DNA of 64,000 nucleotides from Bdellovibrio sp. (GTDB lineage: Bacteria > Bdellovibrionota > Bdellovibrionia > Bdellovibrionales > Bdellovibrionaceae), in assembly GCA_014376435.1 (NCBI GenBank), contig JACMRL010000013.1, forward strand, positions 62,001 through 126,000, read 5' to 3'. How positions within the stretch are numbered: the stretch's first letter is position 1; every line of letters starts with the position of its first letter. The position numbers and the translations under genes were made by a program. Positions 9,730 through 15,268 of the stretch are shown here, in pieces. The notes beneath the pieces are model-generated. The model was not told the DNA's origin, did not search any database, and saw nothing but the letters and a program-made list of their open reading frames with translations.

Positions 9730-10053
9730 ATGTCAGATATCTATTTCACGCCCGCTAGTGAGGCCCACAAGAAAAAAGAAAAAGAGAAAGCCCGCGAACT
9801 TCGTAATGGTACGTGGTGGAAACAAGTTTTAGGTAAAAGTATTTGCTATCACTGCGAACACAAATTTAAATCAACTGAACTGACGATGGATCATTTGATT
9901 CCAATTGCCCGCGGTGGTAAGTCAGATAAAAAAAATTGTGTACCTAGTTGTAAAGATTGTAATAATAAAAAAAGTTACAAAACTCGCGCTGAAATGGCGA
10001 TGGATGAATTAGACCAACAACCAAATAAACGCACAAATACAGATGAAGAATAA
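9730..10053 (+). CDS. HNH endonuclease family protein
   Basis: 107 aa. The zinc-binding CYHC (about 41-44) and later CKDC pair flank MDHLIPIARGG, the HNH core with the DH pair, followed by NCVPSCKDCNNKKS. The N-terminus is highly charged (K/E-rich). It follows the LtaS-like gene by 14 bases on the same strand. HNH proteins of this size may be nicking enzymes, DNA-repair or restriction-related nucleases; nothing here decides which. Confidence 0.88.
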   Translation: MSDIYFTPASEAHKKKEKEKARELRNGTWWKQVLGKSICYHCEHKFKSTELTMDHLIPIARGGKSDKKNCVPSCKDCNNKKSYKTRAEMAMDELDQQPNKRTNTDEE

Positions 10054-10234: not shown

Positions 10235-11626
10235 ATGATTCTCAATTTGAGACGCTTTTCTGATTTGTATAAGTCCGATAAGACCGAAGTGACGAAATCA
10301 TTTTTGACTCTTCTTATTTTTGCTTTTCAATTACGCGCGGCCGCGTCGTCGGCCATTTTTGCTGCCGTTGATTTCAGCGCCGAGAAATTAGCGGCCCTTG
10401 TAAATAAATCTGACTGCAACAATAGCCAGCGTCTTTTTCAAAATCGAACTTGTCTAAAAAATTATTCTATTAGCTCATTAGGTTCATTAGAGCAAGTGGG
10501 TGACCGGGTTATTTACTCGAAGTTAGCAAAATATAAAATTGATCAATTAACTTGTTCCGTGCAGCGCTGGAGTGATTTATCCGAACCGTCCTTCAAAGAT
10601 TCACAGGCCGTGATTGTGGAGGCAATGAATACACAATTACCAATTTTAGAAAAGATCAAAAAAGAAATCGGTTCGTTTGCGATGAACAACCGTAACCCAG
10701 GTCTTAAATATCAGAACGATAAAAGCTTAAACCCAGAAAAACGCAGCGAATTAATTAAAGCGGCCAACAATGCCGTGGAACAAGAGCTTGAGTTAATGCG
10801 TAATCAGTACGAATTTGAAATGACTAAGGTGCCCTTCGGAAATTCTGAAGCTATCAAACTTTTTATAGAGCGAAAATTAAGCGGGCCTTTTTCGCAGTTA
10901 GGAAATATTAAGCTAGAAGAGTTTCAAAAGTTTGCCAGCAAGGTAAAAGAAAATCTTGAATCTGAAAAAGCAGAATTAGTTAATAATCTAAAAGTAGGTA
11001 ATTTCTCGTCTAAGCAGGAAGAAAAATTAATCACTGATGAAGGGGGCTTGTCAGCTTTAATTGAAAGCCAACCCGGCTTAACCGATGGTGCGTTAACATT
11101 GCAATGCAAAGTTGAAAAGCGCTTAGAAGGAAAGCGTGCCGCCTCGGCTGGAGTTACGGTCGCATCAACCCTGTTAACGGGCGGTGGTTTAGCGTTGGTC
11201 AAGGGCGTGCACTTGGCGGTCGCGATAAATAATATTGAGCGGGCCGCTACTTTAGCTAAATTTGCGAACTTTACGACAATCGCAGGGTTGACGATTGCGG
11301 TACCAGACTTAATATTTAATACCTACAGTAAATGTCTGACTCAGAACTATAAACAAACTAAGTCGTCTTGTAACGTAGACCTAGAAAAAATTGCCGAAGA
11401 TCGCCGAGTTGCCGTTTGTTTACAGGCGATCGCTTTGGCGTCTTTACCGGCGGGTGGTGCTTTAGCCAAAAAACTTTTTGGTTCGAACTCGATGGTCGTA
11501 CAAAAAGTGAATGAAGCCACAAATTTAAAAAATGTTCGTAAGCCTGGAACTGACTCTGATAGCTTGGTAAATTCACCAACCGTCAAAGTAAAGCCAGCGT
11601 TACCAAAAACTTTAATCTCCGACTAA
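10235..11626 (+). CDS. Exported hypothetical protein, N-terminal part of a gene interrupted by an in-frame stop
   Basis: 463 aa, family not recognised. Residues about 21-40 (KSFLTLLIFAF then Ala-rich) look like a signal or membrane segment. Cysteines at 61 and 73 flank a CNNSQ stretch. A long charged helical region (about 150-280) follows, then two Gly/Ala-rich hydrophobic stretches (about 300-325 and 338-355) that could be membrane helices. The TAA at 11624-11626 ends it, but the same frame stays open to 12118 (see next entry), so this is probably the front of a 627-residue protein. No clear ribosome site precedes the ATG. Confidence 0.7.
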   Translation: MILNLRRFSDLYKSDKTEVTKSFLTLLIFAFQLRAAASSAIFAAVDFSAEKLAALVNKSDCNNSQRLFQNRTCLKNYSISSLGSLEQVGDRVIYSKLAKYKIDQLTCSVQRWSDLSEPSFKDSQAVIVEAMNTQLPILEKIKKEIGSFAMNNRNPGLKYQNDKSLNPEKRSELIKAANNAVEQELELMRNQYEFEMTKVPFGNSEAIKLFIERKLSGPFSQLGNIKLEEFQKFASKVKENLESEKAELVNNLKVGNFSSKQEEKLITDEGGLSALIESQPGLTDGALTLQCKVEKRLEGKRAASAGVTVASTLLTGGGLALVKGVHLAVAINNIERAATLAKFANFTTIAGLTIAVPDLIFNTYSKCLTQNYKQTKSSCNVDLEKIAEDRRVAVCLQAIALASLPAGGALAKKLFGSNSMVVQKVNEATNLKNVRKPGTDSDSLVNSPTVKVKPALPKTLISD

Positions 11627-11782
11627 CCTACTTTATCTGTTGGCCCCATCACGATCGGCAAGCCATCAGAGAACATCAGTTTACGAATTATCCAAGTCGA
11701 TAAGATTACTAAATTTAGTGAAAAGACGTTAAAAAATCTAAAAGCAAAAAATCGCGAAGTAGCATTAATTGAAAAAGAAACT

Positions 11783-12118
11783 ATGAGCGATTCGAGTTTT
11801 GCGTTATTTTTTCCTCAGCGCCCGCTGGTGCCAGGCACTATACAGCCCGATGCCCCGACGATTCTTGGTCCACCGGATCAAGTTTACATTCCCGAAATCG
11901 GCGCCAATACTTTGCGTATTCCGAAATTAAATAATCGCGGTTCTTTAGAACATCCCAAGTTTGAAGTGATTGAAAAAGTGGTGATTGACGGAGTGACAAA
12001 ATATAAAGTTAAAACTCACCTTAGTAACAATGTTGAACCTACAGAAGAAATGTTAACGAAAGCAGAGATTCTGCAAAGAGTTCCAGCGCAATTTCGCGCG
12101 CGTTCGCCCGCTCGCTAG
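11783..12118 (+). pseudogene. C-terminal fragment of the interrupted exported-protein gene
   Basis: This 111-codon ORF is in the same frame as 10235-11626, and no other stop lies between: 11627-11782 translates as a plausible 52-residue linker (for example SVGPITIGKPSENISLRII). It therefore looks like the tail of the same gene beyond one TAA. No ribosome site precedes the ATG at 11783. The tail is Pro-rich near its start (PQRPLVPGTIQPDAPT) and basic at its end (ARSPAR). It may be a dead remnant, a separately translated piece, or reached by readthrough; a sequencing error is also possible. Confidence 0.6.
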
Positions 12119-12340
12119 GCAAGCGTGCATGATTCAGTCACACAAACATCGTAAAAATAAACAAACAGCTAGTTTTTCAATCAATGGTACGGTGCGCATT
12201 GGATCAGGGCTTGATTTTAAAAGCCCCATGCCCCCTCAATATTATGATTATTAACGGTTTTTGACCGTCGAAAGCTAGCTGTTTTTCATCCAAATCCGGG
12301 TAAAAAATAGCAAAATTCGACGTGTTTTTGGACTTAGGCG
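12119..12340. other. Gap between the interrupted gene and the top6B repeats
   Basis: It holds an unconvincing 41-codon ORF (12129-12254, plus), a short hairpin (ACGGT/ACCGT around 12255-12270) and partly complementary AACAGCTAG / CTAGCTGTT stretches. No gene can be supported. Confidence 0.4.
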
Positions 12341-12395: not shown

Positions 12396-14099
12396 GTGAG
12401 CAAAATCACCAAAAGTAGTACCGCAGAATATTTCGCGAAAAATCTCCAGCAGGTGGGTTTTTCGTCTCCATTAAAAGCTGTATTAACGACGCTGAAAGAG
12501 GCGGTCGATAATTCATTGGATGCGTGCGAACAAACTAATATTCTACCTGAGCTTGATATCGAAGTTATCAAAATCGGTAATGGTTCAACTAAGAATACAG
12601 ATCTAGTTAAAGTTGTCGTGGAAGATAACGGGCCGGGTATTGATGTCGATGATATCGCTAAAGTATTCGGAGAGTATTTAGCTTCATCAAAATTCGGTAA
12701 AGGCCAGTGCTCACGCGGCCAACAAGGTATTGGTATTTCTGCAGCCACGACTTGGGCGCAGATGACGAACGCTAAAGGCGTACAGATTATTTCTAAAACA
12801 AAAAACATGCGTAAAGCAATTTCTGCGCAAGTAGACGTCGATATTAAAACCAATACGGGTATCGTTAAAAATAAAGAGATGATTGATTGGAAAAATAAAT
12901 CTCACGGTTTACGCGTTGAGTTTTTAATGGATGGTCGAATTCAGCTAAACGGCGATGGTGGTTTACAAACTTACATCGACGGCACAGCCTTGTTAAATCC
13001 CCATGCTTCAATGAAATTTAAATTGGGCGATATGGATTGGCAGAAAACCGACCGCGTTAGTAATGACATGCCAATCATTCCCGAAGCAACGCTTCCGCAT
13101 CCGCACACTTTCAAGCTCGGCGAGTTTATCACGCACGCGACTTTGTACGGAAAAATCAGTTTAGCTAAGTTTTTAAAAACGGGTTTCTCTCGCATCTCTG
13201 ATCAATCGATCAAAGATTTTGTTAAAGCCGGTATGCCAAAAGGTTTAATTGAAAAATCAGTAACGTCGTTAACTGATGAAGAATTTAAAAAAGTATTTCA
13301 AGCGGTGCAAGCGACGCAGTTGATGTCACCATCAACAAAGTCAGTTTTAACCGTGGGCGAAGAATCACTTTCAAAATCAATCAACCGCTTAGGCCAAGTT
13401 GATTTCTTTTCGGTGGTGACTCGTACCCCAACAATTTGTGATTTCAAACCGGTGGTAGTTGAAGTTGCTTTGGCGCGCTTTATCAGCCGTGGTGACGAAC
13501 AAAGCCCGGTGCAACTATTACGTTTTGCCAATCGTGTGCCGCTACAATTTGATAAATCAGGTTGTGCAATTACTTGGGCGATTGAAAGTGTTAACTGGAA
13601 ATCATACGGTTTAGCGCAGCCGAAAGAATCTTTACCAATGGGGCCTTATGTCTTTGCGGTATCGGTGGTTTCGCCGTTCATTAAATTTAAAAATGCGTCG
13701 AAAGAAACGATTGATGCATCGGACGAGCTGGTGGAAGAAATTCGCCGTGCGTTGATGCAAGCGGGGCAAAAGCTTTCTCGTCATATCAAGAGCGAATTAA
13801 AAGAAGCGGATCTAGAGCGTAAACTTGCGCACATTGAACAGTTCGGTCCCATACTCGTTGAAAAACTAGTATTGCTAGCTGGTGCCAATGATGCTCGTAA
13901 GAAAAAAGCCGAAGAAGGTTTAAAAAAGATTTTAGGACGTGATTCGCAAGAAGCTGTCAGTCAACTTGAAGAAGCGCAGTCAAAACTAGCGGTGCAAAAG
14001 AAAAAAGAAGCTAAAAAAATGGGTGTCGAAGACAGTTCTGAAACTGATGCCCAGGCAGAAGCCAAGTTTGATAAAAAAGCGGCAAAGAAAAAGAAGTAG
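12396..14099 (+). CDS. top6B: DNA topoisomerase VI subunit B
   Basis: 567 aa, starting at a GTG with GAAGGG 8 bases upstream. The GHKL ATPase has EAVDNSLDA (35-43), EDNGPGI (76-82) and RGQQGIGIS (107-115). An H2TH-like region spans about 230-325 (FSRISDQSIKDF to LTVGEE), and a transducer domain follows with FANRVPLQFDKSGCAI. A Lys/Glu-rich tail (about 500-567) ends in KKAAKKKK. Subunit B binds ATP and closes around the transported DNA. The subunit A gene follows 5 bases downstream. This type IIB topoisomerase is standard in archaea and plants and only sporadic in bacteria. Confidence 0.95.
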   Translation: MSKITKSSTAEYFAKNLQQVGFSSPLKAVLTTLKEAVDNSLDACEQTNILPELDIEVIKIGNGSTKNTDLVKVVVEDNGPGIDVDDIAKVFGEYLASSKFGKGQCSRGQQGIGISAATTWAQMTNAKGVQIISKTKNMRKAISAQVDVDIKTNTGIVKNKEMIDWKNKSHGLRVEFLMDGRIQLNGDGGLQTYIDGTALLNPHASMKFKLGDMDWQKTDRVSNDMPIIPEATLPHPHTFKLGEFITHATLYGKISLAKFLKTGFSRISDQSIKDFVKAGMPKGLIEKSVTSLTDEEFKKVFQAVQATQLMSPSTKSVLTVGEESLSKSINRLGQVDFFSVVTRTPTICDFKPVVVEVALARFISRGDEQSPVQLLRFANRVPLQFDKSGCAITWAIESVNWKSYGLAQPKESLPMGPYVFAVSVVSPFIKFKNASKETIDASDELVEEIRRALMQAGQKLSRHIKSELKEADLERKLAHIEQFGPILVEKLVLLAGANDARKKKAEEGLKKILGRDSQEAVSQLEEAQSKLAVQKKKEAKKMGVEDSSETDAQAEAKFDKKAAKKKK

Positions 14100-14104
14100 G
14101 TTAT

Positions 14105-15268
14105 ATGGCAGGTTTAACAAAAATTCGTGAATTAAAATTAGATATTCCCAAAGAAGCAAAAAATTTAGCTGAGCGTATGCTTAAAGATCTTGAGAATTCA
14201 AAACGCCCTTACTTAGAGGCCGTAAAAACTTCTTTAGATAATTCTGAGTATAACTCAAAGGTTGGTTACTTAACTCCGGGCGATAAAATGGTCCGAACGG
14301 AACTGAACGTTTCTTCGGTACAAAAATTAGCGCGCGTGGTTTTTATGTTAGAGATTTTATTACGTAACTTAGATATTGGTGCCGTTAATACAAAGCGTGA
14401 ACTTTATTATATCTGTAAAGGCCTTATTAAAGGAAACATGCGCTATAAGCCTTTAGATTTCGACGGACAGGATGAATCTGATTCAATCATTGATTTTATC
14501 GGAGATATGTTAGAAGTTTACCGTGAAGAATTAAATTGTTTTGCCAATGATCGCGGTGGTCAAACTTACTCTCAGCAATTAGTGGTCACTGAAACTTTAG
14601 CTGACGGAACAAAAGCCAATATAGATTTATCAACTTTAGGTACGTCTCCGTATCAACCCAAAAATAAACCTCAGGCTTTAAAACTCAAAGCTAAAAAGAA
14701 AATTGATTTTTGCTTAGTGGTTGAGTCAGAAGGTACTGCGGGTACTTTGCAAGCCATGGGTTTCACGAAACGTAACAACTGTATTTTAATGGGTGCCCAA
14801 GGCGTTCCGTCGAATGGTGTGCGCGGTTGGTGTAAACTGATCGAAGATCAATTAGATGTGCCAATGTACTTCTTCGGCGATCTGGATGCGTACACGATGC
14901 AAAATATCTTTCGTACTTTAAAAGCCGGCTCGGCCGCTTCGTTAATTCGTAACAGCGATTTCTCGGCGCCGAATGTTCGTTTCTTGGGGGTGTTACCGGG
15001 CGACGTTAAAAAATACGATCTTCCGCATTACAATGTAAAAGAATCTGATCCACAAGAGGCGCGCGCTTTAAAAAAAGCTAAAGATGCTTTAGAGAACGAT
15101 CCGTTTTTCCGAGATAAAAAAAACCGAGATCTTTCTGATATCTTACGCTGGTTAATTAAAGAAAAGATTCGTTGTGAGCAGCAAAGTTACTTCTCAGTTG
15201 ATCCGCGTGATCCAATCAAAACCGAGAAAATCATCTTAGAAAAAATCAGAAAAGGCGATTACGTTTAA
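14105..15268 (+). CDS. top6A: DNA topoisomerase VI subunit A (Spo11-like)
   Basis: 387 aa, the usual length for Top6A. The winged-helix domain carries TKRELYY; Tyr102 matches the second tyrosine, which is catalytic in Spo11/Top6A. The Toprim domain supplies VVESEGT (Glu207 or Glu209) and GDLDAYTM (Asp259/Asp261) for magnesium. With subunit B it would make ATP-dependent double-strand passage, leaving 5' overhangs. It is tightly linked to top6B and no Topo VIII-type fusion is seen. In archaea the second acidic motif usually reads DxDPxG; here it is DLDAYT. Confidence 0.95.
   Translation: MAGLTKIRELKLDIPKEAKNLAERMLKDLENSKRPYLEAVKTSLDNSEYNSKVGYLTPGDKMVRTELNVSSVQKLARVVFMLEILLRNLDIGAVNTKRELYYICKGLIKGNMRYKPLDFDGQDESDSIIDFIGDMLEVYREELNCFANDRGGQTYSQQLVVTETLADGTKANIDLSTLGTSPYQPKNKPQALKLKAKKKIDFCLVVESEGTAGTLQAMGFTKRNNCILMGAQGVPSNGVRGWCKLIEDQLDVPMYFFGDLDAYTMQNIFRTLKAGSAASLIRNSDFSAPNVRFLGVLPGDVKKYDLPHYNVKESDPQEARALKKAKDALENDPFFRDKKNRDLSDILRWLIKEKIRCEQQSYFSVDPRDPIKTEKIILEKIRKGDYV

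Follow-up and report, generated by a model that had tools for sequence, protein, structure and literature searches.

Topoisomerase VI (topo VI), an enzyme that untangles DNA, is typical of archaea and plants. Two adjacent genes at positions 12396-15268 of a 64,000-nucleotide stretch of the genome of Bdellovibrio sp. (contig JACMRL010000013.1; hereafter, the window) were initially annotated, from the sequence alone, as its two subunits, raising the question of whether this bacterium possesses a genuine topo VI and, if so, which task the enzyme performs. The role of bacterial topo VI was described as an open question in a 2024 survey, which already listed B. bacteriovorus as a species with topo VI and gyrase and without topo IV, so that the presence of topo VI in Bdellovibrio and its missing topo IV are known, and which proposed that topo VI compensates for the loss of topo IV (Allen and Maxwell, 2024; PMC11302465).

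Identity of the gene pair

12396-14099, + strand: top6B, coding for the B subunit of topoisomerase VI, with GHKL ATPase, H2TH and transducer domains, helices at the C-terminus and a short Lys-rich tail
14105-15268, + strand: top6A, coding for the A subunit of topoisomerase VI, with Tyr102 in the winged helix and E207, D259 and D261 in the Toprim domain

The first gene starts with GTG and encodes a protein of 567 amino acids, and the second, beginning after a spacing of 5 nt, a protein of 387 amino acids. Both are intact, full length and chromosomal, and the adjacency of the two unfused subunit genes is kept in all 41 loci read, which agrees with the initial description as an intact pair rather than a fused Topo VIII. 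Top6B scores 516.9 bits against the NCBIfam model NF003218 (cut-off 274), exceeds the cut-off of TIGR01052, matches the Pfam domain Topo-VIb_trans at 1e-45 and finds topo VI-B chains as its top sequence matches in the PDB, with that of M. mazei leading. Top6A reaches 450.9 bits against NF003335 (cut-off 424), matches the Pfam domains TP6A_N and TOP6A-Spo11_Toprim and retrieves the topo VI-A structure 1d3y at 1e-35 in a PDB sequence search. Its Tyr102 aligns with the catalytic tyrosine of 1d3y, which we take to be Y103 in M. jannaschii numbering. The hallmark residues noted at the outset proved to be invariant in phylum-wide alignments, both in Top6A (Y102, E207, D259, D261) and in Top6B (E35, N39, D77, G79, G81 and the RGQQGIG loop).

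The superfamily folds that topo VI has in common with other GHKL/Toprim families, such as MutL, Hsp90 or the MksG/Wadjet nuclease, are the sole reason to consider one of these as the identity of the pair, and this reading can be regarded as practically negligible. Both subunits pass NCBIfam equivalog cut-offs and, as mentioned, lie side by side at every locus read. Moreover, the first 16 PDB matches of a Foldseek search with the AlphaFold model of Top6B (mean pLDDT 80.8) are all topo VI-B structures (E < 1e-33), followed by gyrase B at ~1e-11, and neither the family-model nor the structure searches gave better matches to the MutL, Hsp90 or MksG/Wadjet families. Since NCBIfam, Pfam, PDB and fold comparisons all return topo VI, a placement in MutL, Hsp90 or gyrase is excluded. 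At the level of sequence and predicted structure, the segment 12396-15268 is thus confirmed to encode a complete, presumably active topo VI.

In several families of the order, the C-terminal tails of Top6B consist of histone H1-like Lys/Ala/Thr repeats (loci L044, 7062-8969; L045, 7065-8939; L050, 7065-8984) with a net charge of up to +38; the tail of the window's protein is short (KKAAKKKK).

Core status and genomic surroundings

The distribution of topo VI was determined in 241 Bdellovibrionota genomes, comprising 74 from the window's order and 167 from outside it. Top6B is present in all 74 genomes of the order and, in a second sample, in 58 of 60 (50 of the 51 good ones), and even order genomes of 1.2-1.3 Mb retain it. 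With the operon near-universal in these neighbouring genomes, top6BA is a core chromosomal pair of the order, a status newly established here. The initial statement that type IIB enzymes are only scattered in bacteria therefore holds for bacteria at large and fails for the Bdellovibrionota. In one genome of the window's own family (G034, 97% complete), neither Top6 subunit is present alongside its single GyrA; the missing operon may be an assembly gap or a real loss.

The region upstream of the operon contains three features:

9730-10053, + strand: small HNH endonuclease gene, found in conserved synteny within the order and discounted as a functional partner
10235-12118, + strand: interrupted gene, function unassigned, broken by an in-frame stop codon (TAA, 11624; ORFs at 10235-11626 and 11783-12118)
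12206-12245, + strand: promoter-like block upstream of top6B (AGGGCTTGATTTTA ... CTCAATATTAT / TTCAAT-like), conserved in the genus

In the initial annotation, the HNH gene, the interrupted gene and a shared upstream motif were taken as a hint that the operon is part of an independently controlled accessory locus, a proposal that found no support. In 21 of 22 order loci, top6B is preceded by the HNH gene at a distance of at most 2.6 kb, and of 50-220 bp in about half of them. Orthologues of the HNH gene are unlinked to topo VI in the families f16, f20, f22, f24 and f27 and also occur in f11, a family without topo VI. It thus appears to be an old neighbour, and its candidacy as a functional partner was rejected. 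The interrupted gene was correctly recognized as a single broken frame, but its tie to topo VI did not hold: it sits in a slot between HNH and top6B whose content varies among genomes, has no homologue among the neighbourhoods compared and does not belong to the topo VI system. Similarly, the motif GCCTAAAATCT is indeed present in exactly two copies (10202 and 12365), but it is absent from the corresponding place in relatives, so that its role as a shared control element was rejected. The block at 12206-12245, whose conservation is limited to the genus according to a comparison of the relatives' upstream regions, is promoter-like in sequence and may serve as the promoter of the operon.

These observations bear on the possibility that top6BA is a horizontally mobile or defence-associated accessory locus. 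The HNH gene and the variable slot with a broken gene just upstream would fit such a locus, as would the topo VI genes of f24 and f27, which were apparently acquired from within the order (see below). However, topo VI is missing from hardly any genome of the order, which leaves the accessory reading unsupported, the HNH gene occurs independently of topo VI, and the families of the order share, in part, the arrangement of genes for a GlcD-like oxidase, a glutaredoxin, a sulfatase-like protein, HNH and top6BA. In addition, phage records yielded no topo VI match, and a plasmid search returned nothing beyond the topo VI of haloarchaea and a single weak, partial match. Based on this distribution and the phage and plasmid searches, we rejected a mobile or accessory origin as very improbable. 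The evidence from the compared neighbourhoods instead indicates surroundings that are probably ancestral rather than accessory, a point that the present analysis adds.

Complementary distribution of topo VI and topo IV

The genome containing the window (91% complete) has a single GyrB-type gene and a single GyrA-family gene; the latter adjoins gyrB and encodes the GyrA box QKRGGKG. A search for ParC and ParE found neither in this genome, and the same is true of the complete genomes of the order. Gyrase is thus the only type IIA enzyme of the window's genome. A 2023 review assigned Bd2864 to topo VI, Bd2865 to Top II and Bd0005 to Top IV (PMC11318664). The order-wide gene counts, with exactly one GyrB-type gene in 74 of 74 genomes, suggest that Bd2865 is Top6B and Bd0005 is GyrB instead.

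Across the phylum, 144 of the 150 genomes with topo VI have a single GyrB-type gene. Outside the order, this group includes 76 genomes, with one GyrB-type gene in 70 cases, none found in five and two in one (G078). Among the 91 genomes without topo VI, 67 carry two GyrB-type genes (gyrase and a ParE-like protein), belonging to f17 (64 of 71 genomes), presumably the Bacteriovoracaceae, and f11 (three of four). ParC lacks a GyrA box, and so do the second GyrA-like proteins tested from f17 and f11. In G078 (90% completeness, 5% contamination), the extra GyrA-like protein bears a GyrA-box-like motif and therefore looks like part of a second gyrase, not topo IV. Hence, no clear co-occurrence of topo VI and topo IV was detected among the 241 Bdellovibrionota genomes. 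The two enzymes are complementary across the phylum, and this phylum-wide split is newly added here. The situation can differ in other phyla, in which topo VI and topo IV can coexist (PMC11302465); 8 of 40 topo VI genomes from there have two GyrB-type matches.

The second GyrA-family (ParC-like) protein of f17 has a length of ~470-480 amino acids and is missing the usual C-terminal domain (L089-L092; G073, G087, G066, G102).

In two families, f13 and f21, gyrase is the sole type II topoisomerase found; Top6A, too, was searched for in three f13 genomes (G062, G070, G096) and two f21 genomes (G077, G084) and not detected, and topo IV is likewise missing. A second type II enzyme is thus not strictly required in this phylum.

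Evolutionary history

In a combined Top6B and Top6A tree with archaeal and bacterial homologues, the Bdellovibrionota fall into two separate groups: 33 main-type sequences make up one side of a fully supported branch, and the sequences of f14 and f18 (the latter including UBA2394) lie among planctomycete, myxococcal, gemmatimonadete and DPANN sequences. Given this separation, the phylum gained topo VI at least twice, and both lineages occur in genomes without topo IV. The second lineage and the gyrase-only families described above are new additions of this work.

For f24 (L066/G120, L195/G150) and f27 (L068/G166), topo VI is nested inside the window's order and GyrA is placed outside it, with the two f24 genomes being mutually consistent. 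This pattern suggests that their topo VI genes were transferred within the phylum. An AU test of whether GyrA excludes f24 and f27 from the clade of the window's order was not decisive (not rejected, p 0.38), so that we leave the transfer as a suggestion.

The GyrA tree, which does not resolve the deep nodes, implies three state changes for topo VI and two for topo IV. With so few independent switches and pairs, a sign test for complementarity would not be meaningful. The complementarity is thus striking in its counts, yet it rests on few evolutionary events.

A probable role in chromosome decatenation

In E. coli, the unlinking of daughter chromosomes is the task of topo IV. Given that gyrase is the sole other type II enzyme, this task is also the likely job of topo VI in the window's organism, and the restriction of topo VI to genomes in which topo IV is missing suggests that it does the job of the latter. 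We therefore consider it probable that topo VI is the main chromosome decatenase, taking the place of topo IV. In this scheme, the protein would be a type IIB topoisomerase of the standard A2B2 form: on binding ATP, Top6B would shut its GHKL clamp around a second duplex, Top6A would cleave the first duplex via Tyr102 with a Toprim-bound metal, and the second duplex would then pass through the cut. Gyrase would provide negative supercoiling, and topo VI would act as a housekeeping decatenase that parts the daughter chromosomes instead of topo IV. We infer that the enzyme is active, that decatenation is its chief role and that it is essential; a literature search on the essentiality of these genes in Bdellovibrio returned nothing. 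The A2B2 topo VI from M. mazei acts preferentially as a decatenase (PMC8837201) and is reported to rescue an E. coli parE-ts mutant (Allen and Maxwell, unpublished; PMC11302465).

Several observations count against a replacement of topo IV, including the small number of switches, the gyrase-only families f13 and f21, the lack of topo VI in G034 and the coexistence of both enzymes elsewhere. Mycobacteria decatenate their DNA with gyrase alone, which can also suffice in this phylum, as is evident from f13 and f21. Topo VI might then be an accessory or specialized enzyme, involved in Spo11-like recombination or breaks or in nucleoid compaction during the life cycle, a role that would match the unusual nucleoid biology of the order, histones included (PMC11318664). 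We regard this alternative as unlikely, as it conflicts with the near-universal retention of topo VI in the order, including the genomes of 1.2-1.3 Mb mentioned above, and with its complementarity with topo IV. Furthermore, the intact ATPase subunit, with its complete predicted fold and invariant motifs, fits strand passage and not a Spo11-like activity. Returning to decatenation as the preferred role, we lean towards a scenario in which archaeal-type topo VI was acquired at least twice in one phylum and replaced topo IV as the decatenase each time.

Because the phylum divides almost perfectly into topo IV and topo VI lineages and has cultured members that are amenable to genetics, the replacement hypothesis can be put directly to the test. 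If it is true, these predators depend on an enzyme that does not belong to the type IIA family targeted by quinolones, and the Bdellovibrionota provide a natural series in which lineages have topo IV, topo VI or gyrase alone.

Comparison with known systems

The closest known counterpart is the topo VI of B. bacteriovorus (Bd2864 and its neighbour), which is encoded by the same operon in the same family as the window. The M. mazei enzyme (2q2e, 9o0g) has the same subunits, domains and catalytic residues, with 33% identity between the B subunits over 491 alignment columns. However, the window's Top6B differs in its helical extension and its variable Lys-rich tail, and its model shows no archaeal Ig-like C-terminal domain. 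The fused or mobile-element-associated Topo VIII and Mini-A proteins have the type IIB superfamily in common with the window's genes, which, unlike them, are unfused, full length and chromosomal. The topo VI type found in UBA2394, planctomycetes, Myxococcota and Woesearchaeota, mostly bacterial, is likewise encoded by unfused B-A pairs, but it forms a separate clade with ~35% (B) and ~30% (A) identity to the type represented by the window.
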